DNA of 64,000 bases from Streptomyces spinosisporus (GTDB taxonomy: Bacteria > Actinomycetota > Actinomycetes > Streptomycetales > Streptomycetaceae), in assembly GCF_022698145.1 (NCBI RefSeq), contig NZ_JALDAX010000008.1, positions 62,001-126,000 on the forward strand, read 5' to 3'. The notes under the pieces were generated by a model. That model saw only the letters and a list, made by a program, of their open reading frames with translations. It was not told the origin of the DNA and did not search any database. How positions within the stretch are numbered: position 1 is the stretch's first letter; every line of letters begins with the position of its first letter. The position numbers and the translations under genes are program-made. This document shows positions 1,481-62,798 of this stretch, piece by piece.

Positions 1481-2521
1481 ATGTACGGCAAGGCATTCGC
1501 CCCGGAGTACCAGGGCGCGCTCACGACACTCTCCGTGAACTCCTCGCTGAGCGACGTACTGGCCGCCGGTACACGGGAGTTGAGAGCGGCCGAGCGGTCC
1601 GGGCGGCACGGGGAGGCGGCCCGCTCCGGGCTCGCGGTCGCTGAGGCGCACCGCCGGCTGGGGCAGGTCGCGGACGCCGACCGGGCATGGAAGGCGAGCT
1701 ACCGCGCGGCCCGCGCGGCCGGGGACACGGCAGCGATGGCATGGGCGCTGTGGAGCGGCGGCACGCTGGCCCGGCAGCGGGGAGCCTTCCCGCTGGCCCG
1801 GCGGCTGCTGGGGCTCGCGGCCGAGTTCGGCGAACGGGGTGGTGACGTCGTCGTGCGTGGCTACTCGCTCGCCGGACTCGCCGAGACCGGCCGCATCCAG
1901 GGCGACTACGAAGCCGTCCGCAGACTGCACGAGCAATTGCTCGCCGAGGCACGGCGGCGCGGCGAGGCGCGGCACACGGTGTGGGCACTGGAGGGCATCG
2001 CGCAGATCCACCGCAACACCGGTGCCTACGACACCGCGTTCGCGCTGTTCGAGGAGGCGGCCGAGATAGCCGCCGGCGCCGACGACCGGCGGGGCCACGC
2101 CTGGGCACTGCGCGGCCTCGCCGACATCGTGTCCGTGCGGGACGGGGACGTCGAGCGGGCGCTCGGGCTGCTGTCCGAGGCGGAGACGACGTGCCGGGCG
2201 ATGCATCTGTCCAGCGCGCTGGCCTACAACCACAAGATGCGCGGCAACGTCCTCTACCGCGCGTGCCGTTGGGCCGAGGCCCGCGATCTGTACGAGGAGG
2301 CGCTCGCGGAGTTCCGGGCCATGAGCGAGCCGCGCGGAGCGGCGCTGGCCAGGCTGGGCCTGGTCAAGTCACTGGCCCGACTGGGACGCGACCACACCGA
2401 AACGACCGCCGAACTCACCGCCCTTGCCACCGAGTTGGAGCGGATCGGCCTGAAGCACGCACGTGAAATGGTGACCCGCGCACAGGAAGAGTTCGCGCCG
2501 ACTGCGGAGGCGACACGATGA
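1481..2521 (+). CDS. Tetratricopeptide repeat protein
   Basis: This 346-residue protein is helical and rich in Ala, Arg and Glu, with repeated TPR-like helix pairs. Examples are AARSGLAVAEAHRRLGQVADADRAW, ARRRGEARHTVWALEGIAQIH and AEARDLYEEALAEFRAMSE; the repeats span roughly residues 45-320. It has no DNA-binding domain, signal peptide or membrane segment that I can see, so it is probably a cytoplasmic scaffold or sensor. Its TGA overlaps the ATG of the next small ORF (ATGA at 2518-2521), which implies translational coupling to the prenyl synthase. The 13-bp array immediately upstream suggests tight transcriptional control. Its partner is unknown. Confidence 0.75.
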   Translation: MYGKAFAPEYQGALTTLSVNSSLSDVLAAGTRELRAAERSGRHGEAARSGLAVAEAHRRLGQVADADRAWKASYRAARAAGDTAAMAWALWSGGTLARQRGAFPLARRLLGLAAEFGERGGDVVVRGYSLAGLAETGRIQGDYEAVRRLHEQLLAEARRRGEARHTVWALEGIAQIHRNTGAYDTAFALFEEAAEIAAGADDRRGHAWALRGLADIVSVRDGDVERALGLLSEAETTCRAMHLSSALAYNHKMRGNVLYRACRWAEARDLYEEALAEFRAMSEPRGAALARLGLVKSLARLGRDHTETTAELTALATELERIGLKHAREMVTRAQEEFAPTAEATR

Positions 2522-2819
2522 CGGCACTTCCCTCTACGGTGCGAGCGCCCGCGGACGCCCACCAAGTCCTGGCCCGCTGCCGTGGGTCGGTGCGAGCCGC
2601 GCTCACGGAGGCCTTCGGGCGGATGCATCCGTGGGTGGACGCGATGGTGACCCGCACGCAGGAGGAGGTCGCCCCGGCCGCGGAGGTGGCACGATGACGG
2701 CACTTCCCACGACGGTGCAAGCGCCCGCCGACGTCCACCGAGTCCTGGCCCGCTGCCGTGAGGCGGTGCGGCCTGCGCTCGAGGAGGCCGTTGGGCGGAT
2801 GCATCCGTGGGTGGGCGAG
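2468..2819 (+). repeat. 176-bp diverged tandem duplication spanning a gene junction
   Basis: The segment from 2468 recurs from 2644, an offset of 176 bp. It carries the last codons of the TPR gene (MVTRAQEEFAPTAEATR) and the first ~40 codons of the prenyl synthase (MTALP to GRMHPWV). Both copies keep the ATGA stop-start overlap. Identity is roughly 85 percent by eye, so the duplication is not recent. The junction lies at a short shared ATGG. The product is a chimeric mini-ORF between the two full genes. Confidence 0.85.
2518..2697 (+). CDS. Chimeric 59-residue ORF from tandem duplication
   Basis: The ORF starts at the ATG overlapping the TPR stop and ends with a TGA overlapping the ATG of the prenyl synthase at 2694, so all three frames are joined by ATGA overlaps. 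Its first ~42 residues (MTALPSTVRAPADAHQVLARC...GRMHPWVDA) match the N-terminus of the prenyl synthase. Its last ~17 (MVTRTQEEVAPAAEVAR) match the C-terminus of the TPR protein. The copies differ at many positions yet the frame is still open. It may be a translated linker that passes ribosomes to the synthase, a small protein mimicking both partners, or a relic. Translation is inferred from the coupling alone. Confidence 0.55.
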   Translation: MTALPSTVRAPADAHQVLARCRGSVRAALTEAFGRMHPWVDAMVTRTQEEVAPAAEVAR

Positions 2820-3731
2820 ATGGCTGCCTACTCGCTCGGCTGGTGCGAGGTGGGCGGGGCGCCGGTCGCCGCGTCCGGCGGTAAGGGTGTACGGCAGGCC
2901 CTGGCGGTGCTCGGGGCCGAGGCGGCGGGTGCGCCCGCGGAGGCCGGCGTGCCCGCGGCGGTGGCGGTGGAACTGGTGCACACCTTCTCCCTTCTGCACG
3001 ACGACATCATGGACGGCGACCCGGCCCGGCGCCGCCGTCCCACCGTCTGGAAGGCCTACGGCACCGGGCCCGCGGTTCTCGCCGGAGACGCGCTGTTCGC
3101 ACTGGCCGTCGAGACCCTCGCCGCCGCGCCGGGCGGGCCGCAGGCCGTGCGGGTGCTGTCGGTGGCGCTCAGCGACCTGGTGCACGGCCAGGCCGACGAC
3201 CTGCTGTTCGCCACCCGCCCGTGGACCGGGCCGCAGCGGGTGCGGACGGACGAGTACCGGGCGATGGCCGAGCGCAAGACGGGGGCGCTGCTCGGCTGCG
3301 CCGCCTCGCTCGGCGCCCTGCTCGGCGGCGCGGCGCCCGCAGCGGTCGACGCTCTCGACCGCGCCGGACGCCACCTCGGGATCGCCTTCCAGATCGTCGA
3401 CGACGTCCTGGGCATCTGGGGCGATCCCTCGGTCACCGGAAAGCCCGTCCACGGCGATCTGCGGGAACGCAAGAAGACGTTCCCGGTGCTGGCCGCACTC
3501 GACTCCGACCACCCCCGGTCCGGGCGGCTCGCCGCACTGCTGGACGCCGGCGAGGACGTCGAGGAGGCCGCCGCGCTGATCGAAGCAGCAGGCGGCCGGA
3601 CCGCGGCCATGGCCGAGGCACGCCGCCACATCACCGCAGTGGAGGGTGCTCTCACGGACGCGCCCCTTCAGCAACGGGCAGTGGACGAACTACGGGCGCT
3701 GCTGGAGTACTTGGCCCGGCGGGAGGTGTGA
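2694..3731 (+). CDS. Polyprenyl (geranylgeranyl-type) diphosphate synthase
   Basis: This 345-residue trans-prenyltransferase condenses isopentenyl diphosphate with an allylic diphosphate. The first Asp-rich motif is HDDIMD (D103, D104, D107) followed by RRRRPTVW. The second is FQIVDDVLGIWGD (D236, D237, D244). The region GGKGVRQAL (62-70) matches the usual GGKRLRPAL substrate-binding stretch, with Gly-Val in place of Arg-Leu. Chain length cannot be set from sequence; a C15-C20 product is typical of short enzymes of this kind. The ATG at 2694 overlaps the preceding mini-ORF stop. No cyclase lies next to it; the nearest terpene cyclase is about 17 kb away at 20591. Confidence 0.85.
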   Translation: MTALPTTVQAPADVHRVLARCREAVRPALEEAVGRMHPWVGEMAAYSLGWCEVGGAPVAASGGKGVRQALAVLGAEAAGAPAEAGVPAAVAVELVHTFSLLHDDIMDGDPARRRRPTVWKAYGTGPAVLAGDALFALAVETLAAAPGGPQAVRVLSVALSDLVHGQADDLLFATRPWTGPQRVRTDEYRAMAERKTGALLGCAASLGALLGGAAPAAVDALDRAGRHLGIAFQIVDDVLGIWGDPSVTGKPVHGDLRERKKTFPVLAALDSDHPRSGRLAALLDAGEDVEEAAALIEAAGGRTAAMAEARRHITAVEGALTDAPLQQRAVDELRALLEYLARREV

Positions 3732-3769
3732 CGGGACGCGGGGGGCGTTTCCCTGGGGGGAGGCGCTTC

Positions 3770-4110
3770 CACCTCCTCGGGAGGCAGAGGCTCCCCTCGG
3801 GGGCAGAGGCTCCCCTCGGAAGACGGAGCCCCTCCCGCAAGGCCGAAGCCCCCTCTCGGTAACAGGCGCCTCCCCCTCGGGAGCAGGAGCTCCCCCTCGG
3901 GAGGCGGATGCTGTCCCCTGGGAGGGCGGGCGCTCCCTCCTGAAAGGCGGACGCTGCCCCCCTCAGGGGCGGGCGCACCCCCTCCGCAAAGCAGAACCTC
4001 TTCCTCAGAAGACGGACGCTCCCCCCTCGCAAGGCAGCAACTCCCCCTCAGAGGACGCACACTCCCCCCTCCACAAACAGCACCCTCCTCCGCAAGCAAA
4101 GCCCTCCCCT
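3770..4110. repeat. Degenerate ~21-bp tandem repeat array in intergenic gap
   Basis: Between the prenyl synthase stop (3731) and the dehydratase start (4198) lies a low-complexity tract of about 15 imperfect units with a spacing of 19-22 bp. Typical units read CTCCCCCTCGGGAGGCGGA. Units occur near 3791, 3810, 3870, 3890, 3911, 3933, 3976, 4019, 4041 and 4062. The left units are more alike; the right ones lose GC and drift to CCTCCGCAAAGCA. Several units can form a short stem by pairing CCTC with GAGG. Open frames run across it on both strands, but their proteins are low-complexity Pro/Ser/Gly and I do not regard them as genes. Confidence 0.75.
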
Positions 4111-18939: not shown

Positions 18940-19133
18940 GCGCCCGGGCGCGGGGTGCACTCGGGTGCTGCGCCCGGCGTGCGATCACTTCGCCGACCGC
19001 GTCCTGCGCCGACCGCGGAGTTTGCGCCTCCGCGTGGTGAAGCCGCCCCCTTCACGCCGTACCGGCGCATCACCGCGGCTGTTTGCCTTGTACATGCGGT
19101 GCGTATCTGTCATCCACCCCCCAGGGAGGGAAT

Positions 19134-20576
19134 GTGTCCGCGCCCGACAGCGCCTCCGGACCCGCCACCGACGAGCCCCTGCCCGCATCCGACGGCCAGG
19201 CGCAGCCGACCAGTCTGAGCACGCGGGCGGCGCGCCAGCTCACCACCACGACCAAGTCCGAACCGCAGATGCAGGCCATCAGCTCGCGCTGGCTGCTGCG
19301 GGTGCTGCCCTGGGTGGACGTCAAGGGCGGCACCTACCGGGTCAACCGGCGTCTCCAGCTGCGTATCGGCCGGGGGCGTGTGCAGTTCGAGCAGAACGGC
19401 GCCGACGACATCAAGGTCATCCCCGAGACGCTCACCGAACTGCCGGTGCTGCGCGGCTACTCCGACACCGACGTGCTCAAGGAGGTCGCCACGAGGTTCC
19501 GGGTCCGCGAGGTGCGGGCCGGGCAGGTGCTGTACGAGGCCGGGCAACCGGTCACGGAGGCCTATCTCGTGGTGCACGGCAGGTTCACCCGCTACGCCGC
19601 CGGCAAGTACGGCGAGGAGGAGATCGTCGGGGTCGTCACCGACGGCGACCAGATGGGCGACGAGGCCATCGGGCAGTCCGATCCGCTGTGGCTGACCTCG
19701 GTGCGGGCGGAGACGGCAGGCGTGCTGCTGGTGCTCCCCTGGGATGTCGTCAGGGAGTTCACCGATCGGGTGCCGTCGCTCGCCGCGCACCTGGCGGCGT
19801 TCGCGGAGCGGCAGAAGCTGCCGATGAACCGCAAGGGCGAGGCCGACGTCCCGGTGCAGGCCGGCCATGTCGGCGAGCCGACCATCGGCGGCGGTTTCGT
19901 GAACTACGAACTCGCCCCGCGTGAGTACGAGTTGTCGCTCACGCAGACCGTGCTGCGGGTCCACACCCGGGTCGCCGACCTCTACAACGACCCGATGAAC
20001 CAGACCGAGCAGCAACTGCGCCTGACCGTCGAGGAGATCCGCGAGCGCCAGGAGTGGGAGCTGGTCAACAACCGGGAGTTCGGTCTGCTGCACAACGTGG
20101 ATTACGGCCAGCGCGTCAGCACCTTCACCGGTCCACCCACTCCGGACGACCTGGACGAACTGCTCGCCATGCGGCGCAAGACCAAGGTGTTCCTCGCCCA
20201 TCCCAAGGCGATCGCCGCGTTCTTCCGGCAGTGCAACCGGCGCGGCCTGGTGCCGGGTACGGCGACCGTGGAGGGGCACGAGATCCCCGCCTGGCGCGGG
20301 GTCCCGATCTTTCCCTGCAACAAGATCCCCATCAGCCCTCAGCACACCAGCAGCATCATCGCGCTGCGCGTCGGCGAGTCCGACCAGGGGGTGATCGGCC
20401 TGCACCAGACGGGCATCCCCGAGGAGTACCAGCCGAGCCTGAACGTGCGGTTCATGGGCATCGACACGGCCGCGATCATCCGGTACCTCGTGACCGCCTA
20501 CTACTCGCTGGCCATCCTCGTGCCGGACGCGGCCGGGATCCTGGAGAACGTCCAGCTCGGCCGGACGGCCGACTGA
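19134..20576 (+). CDS. Family 2B encapsulin shell protein (EshA-like, cyclic-nucleotide-binding domain)
   Basis: This 480-residue HK97-fold shell protein carries an inserted cNMP-binding-like domain (~115-225: [28 protein letters not shown] to [14 protein letters not shown]). The shell regions on either side include [77 protein letters not shown] and [36 protein letters not shown]. Family 2B encapsulins in Streptomyces form protein nanocompartments and are often encoded beside 2-methylisoborneol synthase, a cargo enzyme. The GTG at 19134 follows AGGGAGGG by three to four bases and gives the usual disordered N-terminus. The cyclase starts 14 bp downstream. Confidence 0.92.
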
Positions 20577-20590
20577 GGGTGGAGTCAGCG

Positions 20591-21640
20591 ATGAGTGCGC
20601 CCGCATCCCCGGCCCCGCTGCCGGGGCCGCCGAACCTCGCCCGCACGGTGCGCGCCCGCCGCACCGGGGCGGTCCCCGGCCTCAGACACCGGGCCGTCGC
20701 CCCCGCCGACCCGGCCACGGTCGAGGAGGTCGACCGCAGACTGGAGGCCTGGGCCCACGGTCTCGATCTGTTCCCGAAGGCCTGGTCGGGGGACTTCTCC
20801 GGCTTCCAGTTCGGCCGGGCCGTGGTCCTGCAGCACCCGGCGGCGGCCGACCTGGAGCGGCTCACCGCCGCGGGCAAGCTGCTGCTGGCCGAGAACCTCG
20901 TCGACAGCTGCTACTGCGAGGAGGACGAGGGCAGGGGCGGCGCCCGCCGCGGCCTCGGCGGCCGGCTGATCCTGGCCCAGTCGGCGATCGACCCGTTCCA
21001 CGGCACCCCCGCCCTGCAGGAGCAGTGGGCGCACGGTGTGCAGGCCGACGGTCCGCTGCGCTCGTACCACTGGGCGCTCAAGGACTACGCCGCCTTCGCG
21101 ACCCCCAGCCAGACGGACCGGTTCGTGCACGACATCGCCCGGCTGCACCTCGGCTATCTCGCCGAGGCGGCGTGGGCGGAGACCCGCCATGTGCCGCAGG
21201 TGTGGGAGTACCTGGTGATGCGGCAGTTCAACAACTTCCGCCCGTGTCTGTCGATCGTCGACGCCGTGGACGGCTACGAGCTGCCCGAGGCGGTCTACGC
21301 CCGTCCGGAGATCCAGCGCATCACGGCGCTCGCCTGCAACGCCACCACCATCGTCAACGACCTGTACTCCTTCACCAAGGAGCTGGCGAGCGACCCCACC
21401 CATCTCAATCTGCCGCAGGTCGTCGCCGCCAACGAGCGGTGCGGTCTGAAGGCCGCCTACCTCAAAGCGGTCGAGATCCACAACGAGATCATGACCGCCT
21501 TCGAGGAGGAGTCCGCCGTCCTGTCCGCCACCTCGCCCCTCGTGGAGCGCTACGCCCGGAGCCTGTCCGACTGGGTCGCCGGCAACCACGAGTGGCACGC
21601 CACCAACACCCACCGCTACTCCCTGCCCAACTACTGGTAG
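20591..21640 (+). CDS. 2-Methylisoborneol synthase-like terpene cyclase, short N-terminus
   Basis: This 349-residue class I terpene cyclase resembles 2-methylisoborneol synthase, which cyclises 2-methylgeranyl diphosphate. The NSE triad is intact: NDLYSFTKE (N256, D257, S260, E264). Family-typical blocks include TPSQTDRFVHDIARLHLGYLAEAAWAE, MRQFNNFRPC and the C-terminus RYSLPNYW. The first metal motif reads VDSCYCEEDEG (D105, S106), where the family has VDDCYCED, and a ~3-residue insertion follows. The disordered N-terminal region, thought to target such enzymes to the shell, is only ~40 residues (MSAPASPAPLPGPPNLARTV), much shorter than in the S. coelicolor enzyme as I recall it. The product may differ. 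Confidence 0.88.
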   Translation: MSAPASPAPLPGPPNLARTVRARRTGAVPGLRHRAVAPADPATVEEVDRRLEAWAHGLDLFPKAWSGDFSGFQFGRAVVLQHPAAADLERLTAAGKLLLAENLVDSCYCEEDEGRGGARRGLGGRLILAQSAIDPFHGTPALQEQWAHGVQADGPLRSYHWALKDYAAFATPSQTDRFVHDIARLHLGYLAEAAWAETRHVPQVWEYLVMRQFNNFRPCLSIVDAVDGYELPEAVYARPEIQRITALACNATTIVNDLYSFTKELASDPTHLNLPQVVAANERCGLKAAYLKAVEIHNEIMTAFEEESAVLSATSPLVERYARSLSDWVAGNHEWHATNTHRYSLPNYW

Positions 21641-21687
21641 ATCCAGCACTACTGACACCACGTCAGGCACAGCACAAGGAGTCATAG

Positions 21688-22566
21688 TTGACGATCGCCC
21701 CCGACGCCGACACCACCTCGGCACCGGTGCCGACCCAGTCCACGTACCAGAACCGCGTCGCGGAGTACTGGAACGCCGAGGAGAACCCGGTCAACCTCGA
21801 ACTCGGCAAGATCGACGATCTCTACCACCATCACTACGGCATCGGTGACGCCGACCGGACCGTGCTCGACGAACCCGACCCCGCGCGGCGGCGGAAGCGG
21901 ATCACCACCGAACTGCACCGTCTGGAACACGCCCAGGCCGAATTGCTGGCCGACCGCCTCGGCCCGCTCTCCCCCGCCGACCGGGTCTTCGACGCGGGCT
22001 GCGGACGCGGCGGCGGCAGCGTGGTGGCTCATCTGCGCCACGGCTGCCACGCCGACGGCGTGACGATCTCCGCCAAGCAGGCCGCGTTCGCCAACGAGCG
22101 GGCCCGTGAGCGGGGCATCGACGACCATGTGCGCTACCACCACCGCAACATGCTCGACACCGGCTTCGAGACCGGCGCGTACGCGGCGTCGTGGAACAAC
22201 GAGTCGACCATGTACGTCGAGCTGGACCTGCTGTTCGCCGAGCACGCCCGGCTGCTGCGCCGCGGCGGACGCTATGTGGTGATCACCGGCTGCTACAACG
22301 ACACCTACGGTCGGGCGTCCCGCGAGGTGTCCCTCATCAACGCCCACTACATCTGCGACATCCACCCGCGCTCGGAGTACTTCCGCGCGATGGCCCGCAA
22401 CCGCCTCGTCCCGGTCCATGTGCAGGACCTGACCGCCGAGGCCATCCCCTACTGGGAGTTGCGCAGGCAGGCCGACCACCTGGTCACGGGCATCGAGGAC
22501 ACGTTCCTGACGGCGTACAAGAACGGCAGCTTCCAGTACCTGCTGATCGCCGCCGACCGCATCTGA
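21688..22566 (+). CDS. Geranyl diphosphate 2-C-methyltransferase
   Basis: This 292-residue SAM-dependent methyltransferase is of the type that converts geranyl diphosphate to 2-methylgeranyl diphosphate. It has the SAM motif VFDAGCGRGGGS (~100-111), the family N-terminus STYQNRVAEYWNAEENPVNLELGKIDDLYHHHYGIG, and WNNESTMYVELDLLF. The TTG start follows AAGGAG (21676-21681) by six bases. Together with the cyclase and the encapsulin shell it forms a three-gene operon for a methylated monoterpenoid. A composite hairpin follows the stop. Confidence 0.92.
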   Translation: MTIAPDADTTSAPVPTQSTYQNRVAEYWNAEENPVNLELGKIDDLYHHHYGIGDADRTVLDEPDPARRRKRITTELHRLEHAQAELLADRLGPLSPADRVFDAGCGRGGGSVVAHLRHGCHADGVTISAKQAAFANERARERGIDDHVRYHHRNMLDTGFETGAYAASWNNESTMYVELDLLFAEHARLLRRGGRYVVITGCYNDTYGRASREVSLINAHYICDIHPRSEYFRAMARNRLVPVHVQDLTAEAIPYWELRRQADHLVTGIEDTFLTAYKNGSFQYLLIAADRI

Positions 22567-61751: not shown

Positions 61752-62798
61752 ATGGCCGTCGCACCGCACCCTCTCGTCTCCGCCGCCCGGTCCCTCGCCG
61801 AGGACGTCCTCGCCCCGAACGCGGCGCGGGTCGACCAGGAGGGCGTGCCCGTCAGTCATGTCGAGGCCCTCCGGCGTGCGGGGCTGCTGGGGGTGTCCGC
61901 GCCCGAGGAGTACGGCGGAGCGGGTGCGCCCGATGCGGTGGCGCGGGAGATCGCCGAGATCCTGGCCGGGGCCTGCTGCTCGACATGGTTCGTGCAGACC
62001 CAGCACCACACGCCGGTGAGACTGCTCGCGCGGGCCGAACTCCCGGTGCGCGAGCGGCTGTTGCGTCCGCTGGCGACCGGCGAGCTGATGGCCGGGATCG
62101 CGTTCGCGCATGTGCGGGCCTTTCCCCGGGTGCCGGTGCGGGCGCGGGCCGAGCGGGGCGGCTGGCGCTTCGACGGCACGGTGCCCTGGTACACGGGCTG
62201 GGGGCTCAACGACGTGATGCTGCTGGCCGGTGTGACCGAGGCGGACGAGGTGGTGTTCGCCTTCACCGACGCGCGCGAGCAGCCGGGGCTGCGTCCCTCG
62301 CCCCCGATGCGGCTGGCGGCGCTGACGGCGGCCCGCACGGTGACGCTGGAGCTGGACGGCCTGTGGCTGCCCGACGAGTCGGTGGTGTTGCGCACGCCGC
62401 AGAAGGAGTTCGCCCTCGTCGACCGGCCCCGCAACACCAACGCCTCCCCCGCCGTCTTCGGGGTCGCCGAGGCCGCGCTCCGCGTGCTGGACGAGGCCGG
62501 GGAGACCCGGACCGCACACGGCCTTCGCGGCCGTCTCGACGAGGTGCGGCGGCAGGCGTACGAGTTGGCCGAGCACCCCGTGCCGCACGAGCGCATCGAG
62601 GAGCGGCTGACGCTCAAGACCCGGGCCTACGACCTCATGCGCGCGGCCACGACCGCGGCGATCGTGGCCGGGAGCGGCCGTGCCCTGCGACTCGACGGCA
62701 CCGCCCAGCGCCTGGCCCGCGAGGGGATGTTCCTGCTGGTGCAGGGGCAGACGTCCGACGTGCGCCGGGCCCATCTCGCCGCCCTGGCACAGATCTGA
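61752..62798 (+). CDS. Acyl-CoA dehydrogenase-family protein
   Basis: This 348-residue flavoprotein has EALRRAGLLGVSAPEEYGGAGAP as the N-terminal block, LATGELMAGIAFAHVRAFPRVPVRARAERGGWRFDGTVPWYTGWG as the middle domain and LRLDGTAQRLAREGMFLLVQGQTSDVRRAHLAAL at the C-terminus. The catalytic base of classical enzymes is not obvious, so a hydroxylase-like (HpaB/DszC-like) or dehydrogenase role is possible. The gene diverges from the DGPF gene across 96 bp. Confidence 0.8.
   Translation: MAVAPHPLVSAARSLAEDVLAPNAARVDQEGVPVSHVEALRRAGLLGVSAPEEYGGAGAPDAVAREIAEILAGACCSTWFVQTQHHTPVRLLARAELPVRERLLRPLATGELMAGIAFAHVRAFPRVPVRARAERGGWRFDGTVPWYTGWGLNDVMLLAGVTEADEVVFAFTDAREQPGLRPSPPMRLAALTAARTVTLELDGLWLPDESVVLRTPQKEFALVDRPRNTNASPAVFGVAEAALRVLDEAGETRTAHGLRGRLDEVRRQAYELAEHPVPHERIEERLTLKTRAYDLMRAATTAAIVAGSGRALRLDGTAQRLAREGMFLLVQGQTSDVRRAHLAALAQI

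Follow-up and report, generated by a model that had tools for sequence, protein, structure and literature searches.

A tandem duplication across an overlapping TPR–polyprenyl synthase gene junction in Streptomyces spinosisporus and its in-frame chimeric ORF, best seen as a mostly neutral by-product

Tandem duplication by slipped-strand events between short direct repeats is a general mechanism in bacteria. The locus described here resembles such duplications in that the bounding repeat is found in relatives, the copies lie head to tail and their period matches the distance between the repeats, but it differs from the general case in that the duplicated unit spans a stop/start overlap and yields a closed, in-frame chimeric ORF. 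It lies in a 64 kb window (the whole stretch of DNA analysed, positions 62,001–126,000 of contig NZ_JALDAX010000008.1) of the 9.4 Mb genome of Streptomyces spinosisporus (GCF_022698145.1), and its nearest named relatives at the junction locus are Streptomyces. Literature searches for a duplicated junction of overlapping or coupled genes listed no paper whose title or abstract describes such a case.

Gene pairs that overlap by ATGA are coupled by termination–reinitiation in the systems treated in two reports (PMC6728339; PMC10666635). Removal of the ribosome-binding motif substantially reduced reinitiation in four of five E. coli pairs (PMC6728339). In reporter constructs in E. coli and Haloferax reinitiation falls steeply with distance; at a stop-to-start distance of +38 nt it was (almost) abolished in E. 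coli, where no more of the upstream gene than its final 15 nt was needed (PMC10666635). The junction studied here shares the 4 bp overlap, a feature retained by 88 of the 93 distinct relatives; unlike the coupled pairs described, it has a 59-codon ORF between its two original genes and hence two successive overlaps.

The downstream gene of the pair recalls the polyprenyl transferases associated with family 2 encapsulins, which likewise have a variable N-terminal region ahead of the catalytic portion (PMC8346489). The corresponding model, NF041169 (family 2 encapsulin cargo polyprenyl transferase), is its best NCBIfam match, but the score of 385 bits lies below the cut-off of 450, the neighbour is a TPR gene and no encapsulin gene lies beside it. 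The stretch before the conserved part also differs, at about 19 residues (by eye) here compared with 50–100 in the encapsulin-associated enzymes (PMC8346489). The encapsulin gene of the window is found at 19083–20576, about 15 kb away. Among 109 related loci (flanks of 1.5–5 kb) a near full-length encapsulin match occurs in just two, L109 and L112, and a 47-residue piece lies at the edge of L046. An encapsulin-cargo identity of the synthase was rejected for this locus because of the score and the lack of an adjacent encapsulin. Among solved structures the closest is 3nf2, annotated as a putative polyprenyl synthetase, with E = 6.6e-79 and an alignment that begins at residue 13. The distant encapsulin gene itself is of family 2B (NF041163 above its cut-off), with SrpI-like and cNMP-binding domains, and is followed within 19083–22566 by a terpene synthase ORF and a methyltransferase ORF, a gene set that we take to resemble a 2-methylisoborneol cluster.

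Anatomy of the duplicated junction

The elements of the junction, all on the + strand, are as follows.

1355–1452, +: array with a 13 bp period and GTATAC boxes before the TPR gene, a possible operon operator (repeat search, motif counts)
1481–2521, +: TPR protein gene, 346 amino acids, upstream member of the overlapping pair (ORF; Pfam TPR_12, 3.5e-16)
2465–2471, +: GAAATGG, the present form of the left breakpoint repeat (L116, L037 and L117 have GAGATGG; relatives' sequences)
2468–2643, +: repeat copy 1, comprising TPR codons 330–346, the ATGA overlap and synthase-like codons 1–42 (repeat search, copy alignment)
2506–2510, +: GGAGG of copy 1, 7 nt upstream of the mini-ORF ATG (sequence; anti-SD duplex −11.3 kcal/mol)
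2518–2697, +: chimeric mini-ORF, 59 codons (ORF list)
2641–2647, +: novel inter-copy junction, now GCGATGG (relatives' sequences)
2644–2819, +: repeat copy 2, comprising TPR-like C-terminal codons, the ATGA overlap and the true synthase codons 1–42 (repeat search, copy alignment)
2682–2686, +: GGAGG of copy 2, 7 nt upstream of the synthase ATG (sequence; anti-SD duplex −14.6 kcal/mol)
2694–3731, +: polyprenyl (isoprenyl diphosphate) synthase gene, 345 amino acids from the ATGA start (Pfam PF00348, 7.2e-58; start set as in relatives)
2817–2823, +: right breakpoint repeat GAGATGG (relatives' sequences)

The 176 nt direct repeat (score 535) is the sole array with a period above 100 that Tandem Repeats Finder, with a longest period of 500, gives for the window, and is far beyond chance. 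Its copies are identical at 150 of 176 positions (85%), with 26 differences and no indels. The mini-ORF joins 42 codons of the synthase N-terminus to 17 codons of the TPR C-terminus, and both of its junctions, with the TPR gene and with the synthase, read ATGA. An earlier, sequence-only reading of this DNA had described a 176 bp tandem duplication across a two-gene junction, a chimeric 59-codon ORF keeping both ATGA overlaps, and copies about 85% identical with the frame unbroken; each of these descriptions agrees with the present analysis, the ORF containing neither indel nor stop. The ORF-list start of the synthase, GTG at 2631, was rejected since 88 of 93 distinct relatives have a start codon at the overlap.

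Other repeats flank the pair. Upstream, the 1355–1452 array contains five matches to GTATAC-N7-GTATAC with at most two mismatches (0.11 expected), and at least two TATAC motifs occur within 250 bp upstream in 72 of 92 distinct loci, that of the window included, compared with none of 94 coding stretches. In the host genome exact GTATAC pairs are confined to this array and to C21:19569, next to an ORF that by eye resembles a PadR-type regulator; genome-wide, the mismatch-tolerant pattern is not enriched over its reversed control (24 versus 23 per strand). It is possible that the array is an operator array. Downstream, degenerate tandem repeats of about 20–43 bp take up much of the intergenic DNA that follows the synthase (3769–4071).

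The junction in relatives and the origin of the duplication

The 109 loci comprise 80 named ones and 29 from genus genomes, the latter being the best of the 186 genomes, out of 392, that match at E = 1e-95. A TPR gene lies directly upstream in 98 loci, 93 of which are distinct by synthase sequence; ten of the 109 lack it, and L114, with a TPR match 3.8 kb away, was left out of the counts. The overlap between TPR stop and synthase start is GTGA in 55, ATGA in 32 and TTGA in one of the 88 distinct relatives that have it, and the remaining five have no start at the overlap. GGAGG is present at most 16 nt upstream of the start in 49 of these 88, and the synthase N-terminus before HPW, found in 85 of them, varies from 28 to 124 codons.

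A repeat comparable to that of the window was found in none of the 98 TPR-bearing loci by ungapped self-comparison at offsets of 20–499: the window scores 122.8 at offset 176, L138 follows with 70.4 at offset 39 and all others reach at most 21. When the mini-ORF protein was searched against the 392 genus genomes, 154 matched at E = 1e-4, the host genome twice and the other 153 once each, in a search that scored the best candidates per genome and that a strongly diverged second copy could escape. Among the matches listed, none outside the host genome passes residue 47 of the 59. Plasmid records gave 12 matches, all of 60–80% identity and none covering 80% of the query, and a further genus sample around G217 (83% identity), made up largely of genomes already in the 392, and 395 relatives contained no nearer orthologue than G217 itself. 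The comparison with relatives proposed in the sequence-only reading finds the duplication absent from all those examined (0 of 98 loci; one match each in 153 genus genomes), which is one of the two findings that this reading had named as jointly refuting its inference. The second-best repeat score, in L138 (approximately 1218–1531), belongs to a 39 bp tandem, or 13-residue, repeat in the synthase N-terminus, and similar 13-residue steps are visible by eye in the synthase N-termini of L036, L042, L121, L131 and L134.

The four nearest relatives by synthase identity, L116, L037, L101 and L117, all lack the duplication. In L116, L037 and L117 the motif GAGATGG stands both in the TPR codons Glu-Met-Val and in the synthase codons Glu-Met-Ala, exactly 176 bp apart. 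The third-nearest, L101, has a longer N-terminus, a spacing of 395 and a TPR gene without GAGATGG, and was counted against the best explanation. Both motifs were found in 66 of 99 loci (not deduplicated), of which 43 share at least seven bases in register and seven have the 176 bp spacing. The observation that the spacing is 2 modulo 3 in 66 of 66 loci was set aside since its outcome is built in, the motifs having been sought each in its own gene's frame.

These data suggest the following course. In one Streptomyces lineage, on an overlapping gene pair, a slip or unequal exchange between ancestral GAGATGG direct repeats, which lay 176 bp apart and encoded Glu-Met in the C-terminal part of the TPR protein and the N-terminal part of the synthase, would have duplicated the junction; such a slip accounts for both the unit and the inter-copy junction that are observed. 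With the same codon phase at both repeats (GAG-ATG-G), the reading frame of the synthase would run on across the new junction into that of the TPR gene, and the second TPR stop would end the mini-ORF, again overlapping the synthase start by ATGA. Because both repeats read GAG-ATG-G in their own genes, the chimera would be in frame by construction and would need no selection. The copy-to-copy dS is 0.16 for the N-terminal part and 0.21 for both parts; the dS to L116 and L037 is 0.49–0.51 for the N-terminal part and 0.37–0.44 for the synthase body. Since the copy-to-copy values lie below those to L116 and L037, the duplication is probably younger than the splits from these two relatives.

For the product of a slip that is met in just one genome, 15% is nevertheless a large divergence, and one copy might instead be an allele brought in from another lineage by homologous recombination, so that the divergence would be older than the duplication. 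We regard such an import as very unlikely: the breakpoint repeats lie one period apart, and the nearest of five in-register relatives is 22% from either copy, compared with 15% between the copies. Ten relatives were tried for this comparison, and the unit is in register in L116, L037, L117, L065 and L050; the 300 bp upstream values of L040, L119, L039, L127 and L135 were left unused as out of register, L127 being so throughout. The origin of the mini-ORF is in our view largely explained by a well-supported short-repeat duplication, with the slip itself inferred.

Substitutions and the open frame of the mini-ORF

Changes between the copies were polarised with L116, L037 and L117, and 16 distinct relatives of equal N-terminal length were tabulated. 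In the synthase-like part, nine of the 17 differences are new in the mini-ORF, seven in the synthase and one is undecided; in the TPR-like part the nine differences divide into two, four in the TPR gene and three, respectively. An excess of polarised changes in the mini-ORF was expected and was not found (11 versus 11 in the real gene ends, four undecided). The differences fall at the three codon positions as 5/7/5 in the N-terminal part and 4/1/4 in the TPR-like part. In the N-terminal part 71% are nonsynonymous, compared with 72% expected without selection; the copy-to-copy dN/dS is 0.92 (bootstrap 0.39–3.86, on small numbers), and Fisher tests against six orthologue pairs give p = 0.13–1.0. 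The dN/dS is 0.39 in the 17 codons of the TPR-like part, where one copy is the real TPR gene, and 0.68 with a wide error for both parts. The TPR-like part looks more coding-like than the N-terminal part, which counts against near-neutral drift.

Conservation among 71 distinct relatives was also compared, excluding column E42, which lies beside the breakpoint. At 13 columns conserved to at least 90%, the mini-ORF deviates at three and the synthase at one, while 43, 17, 10 and 1 of the relatives deviate at zero, one, two and three, respectively. At 15 columns conserved to at least 80% the mini-ORF again deviates at three, and at least three deviations occur in four of the 71. The changes of the mini-ORF at conserved synthase positions include P27A (a column invariant in the 71 relatives), V33F and E42A. 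With a real gene as one of the two copies at each site, the dN/dS values would fit a mini-ORF under little or no constraint, but they bear weakly on the question either way.

The intact frame was weighed against neutral expectation. In simulated drift, 11 changes on the inferred earlier ORF left 71–74% of runs stop-free, and 24–42% open with 0.1–0.05 indel per substitution; with all 26 changes 45–50% remained open, and 3–14% with indels (3–4% at 0.1 indel per substitution). These simulations assume the indel ratio and count every indel as a break, and the true number of mini-ORF changes is 11 to 15 by polarisation. When the same two genes are read forward but out of frame, 36 of 54 stretches of 59 codons in the window and 3641 of 5442 (67%) in the 93 relatives contain no stop; among random 59-codon stretches of the window, true genes in their own frame included, the share is 1436 of 2554. 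The synthase frame is also open from 2475 through the whole mini-ORF. Because open frames are common here and drift often leaves the ORF open, its intactness is no evidence of selection. The sequence-only reading had argued from the unbroken frame to selection; this step is not sustained, as the frame could well have survived without selection, the codon phase of the breakpoint repeats by itself puts the join in frame and the dN/dS over both parts is 0.68 with a wide error. The weaker form of that inference, selection on the passage of ribosomes, may still apply.

Translation and meaning of the chimeric ORF

Since a start, a ribosome-binding motif and an overlap are present, the mini-ORF is likely to be translated to some degree. 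The anti-SD duplex of copy 1 is equalled or exceeded by 40 of 88 relatives and that of copy 2 by four of 88; pairing was predicted against the 16S tail. Ribosomes leaving the TPR gene could read the mini-ORF and then reinitiate at the synthase, or the synthase, with its own strong ribosome-binding motif, may start independently.

In a translational relay, the frame rather than the amino acids would be kept under selection to carry ribosomes over the 172 nt from the TPR stop at 2521 to the synthase start at 2694, and a frame break would uncouple the synthase. Such a relay is a coherent hypothesis. It would fit the retention of the 4 bp overlap in relatives despite the variable length of the synthase N-terminus, the absence of any stop or indel at 15% divergence, and the (almost) complete loss of reinitiation at +38 nt in E. 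coli (PMC10666635). Open frames, however, come free at this locus, including the synthase frame across the mini-ORF, independent initiation at the strong synthase motif may suffice, and the coupling is known from other pairs in E. coli and Haloferax, so that we hold a selected relay to be rather unlikely.

That the mini-ORF encodes a small protein with a function, such as a decoy for the N-terminal region of the synthase or a partner of the TPR protein, appears to us extremely unlikely. The ORF is intact and has a start and a ribosome-binding motif, and the short TPR-like part has a dN/dS of 0.39, but P27A, V33F and E42A alter conserved synthase positions, the ORF is present in one genome alone among those examined, and at E = 0.001 its product has no match in Pfam or NCBIfam. 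We infer that the peptide itself is without function, its 59 residues being just synthase residues 1–42, before the DDIMD motif, and the last 17 TPR residues.

The account that we favour with reasonable confidence is that a slip between short repeats made the in-frame chimera and that the peptide is functionless and drifts nearly neutrally; in this view the chimeric ORF is a by-product, a probably recent and mostly neutral accident that would at best keep ribosomes moving from the first gene to the second. A slip spanning the junction of an overlapping pair would then offer a clean example of how a chimeric ORF can arise ready-made with its own ribosome-binding motif, and the locus suits a simple reporter test of coupling versus independent initiation in second-gene expression. 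Should a relay operate after all, it would show, in a natural setting, ribosome passage being selected for while the peptide is not. If the ORF is ordinary, as we judge, it cautions against taking an open short frame in high-GC DNA for a sign of selection.
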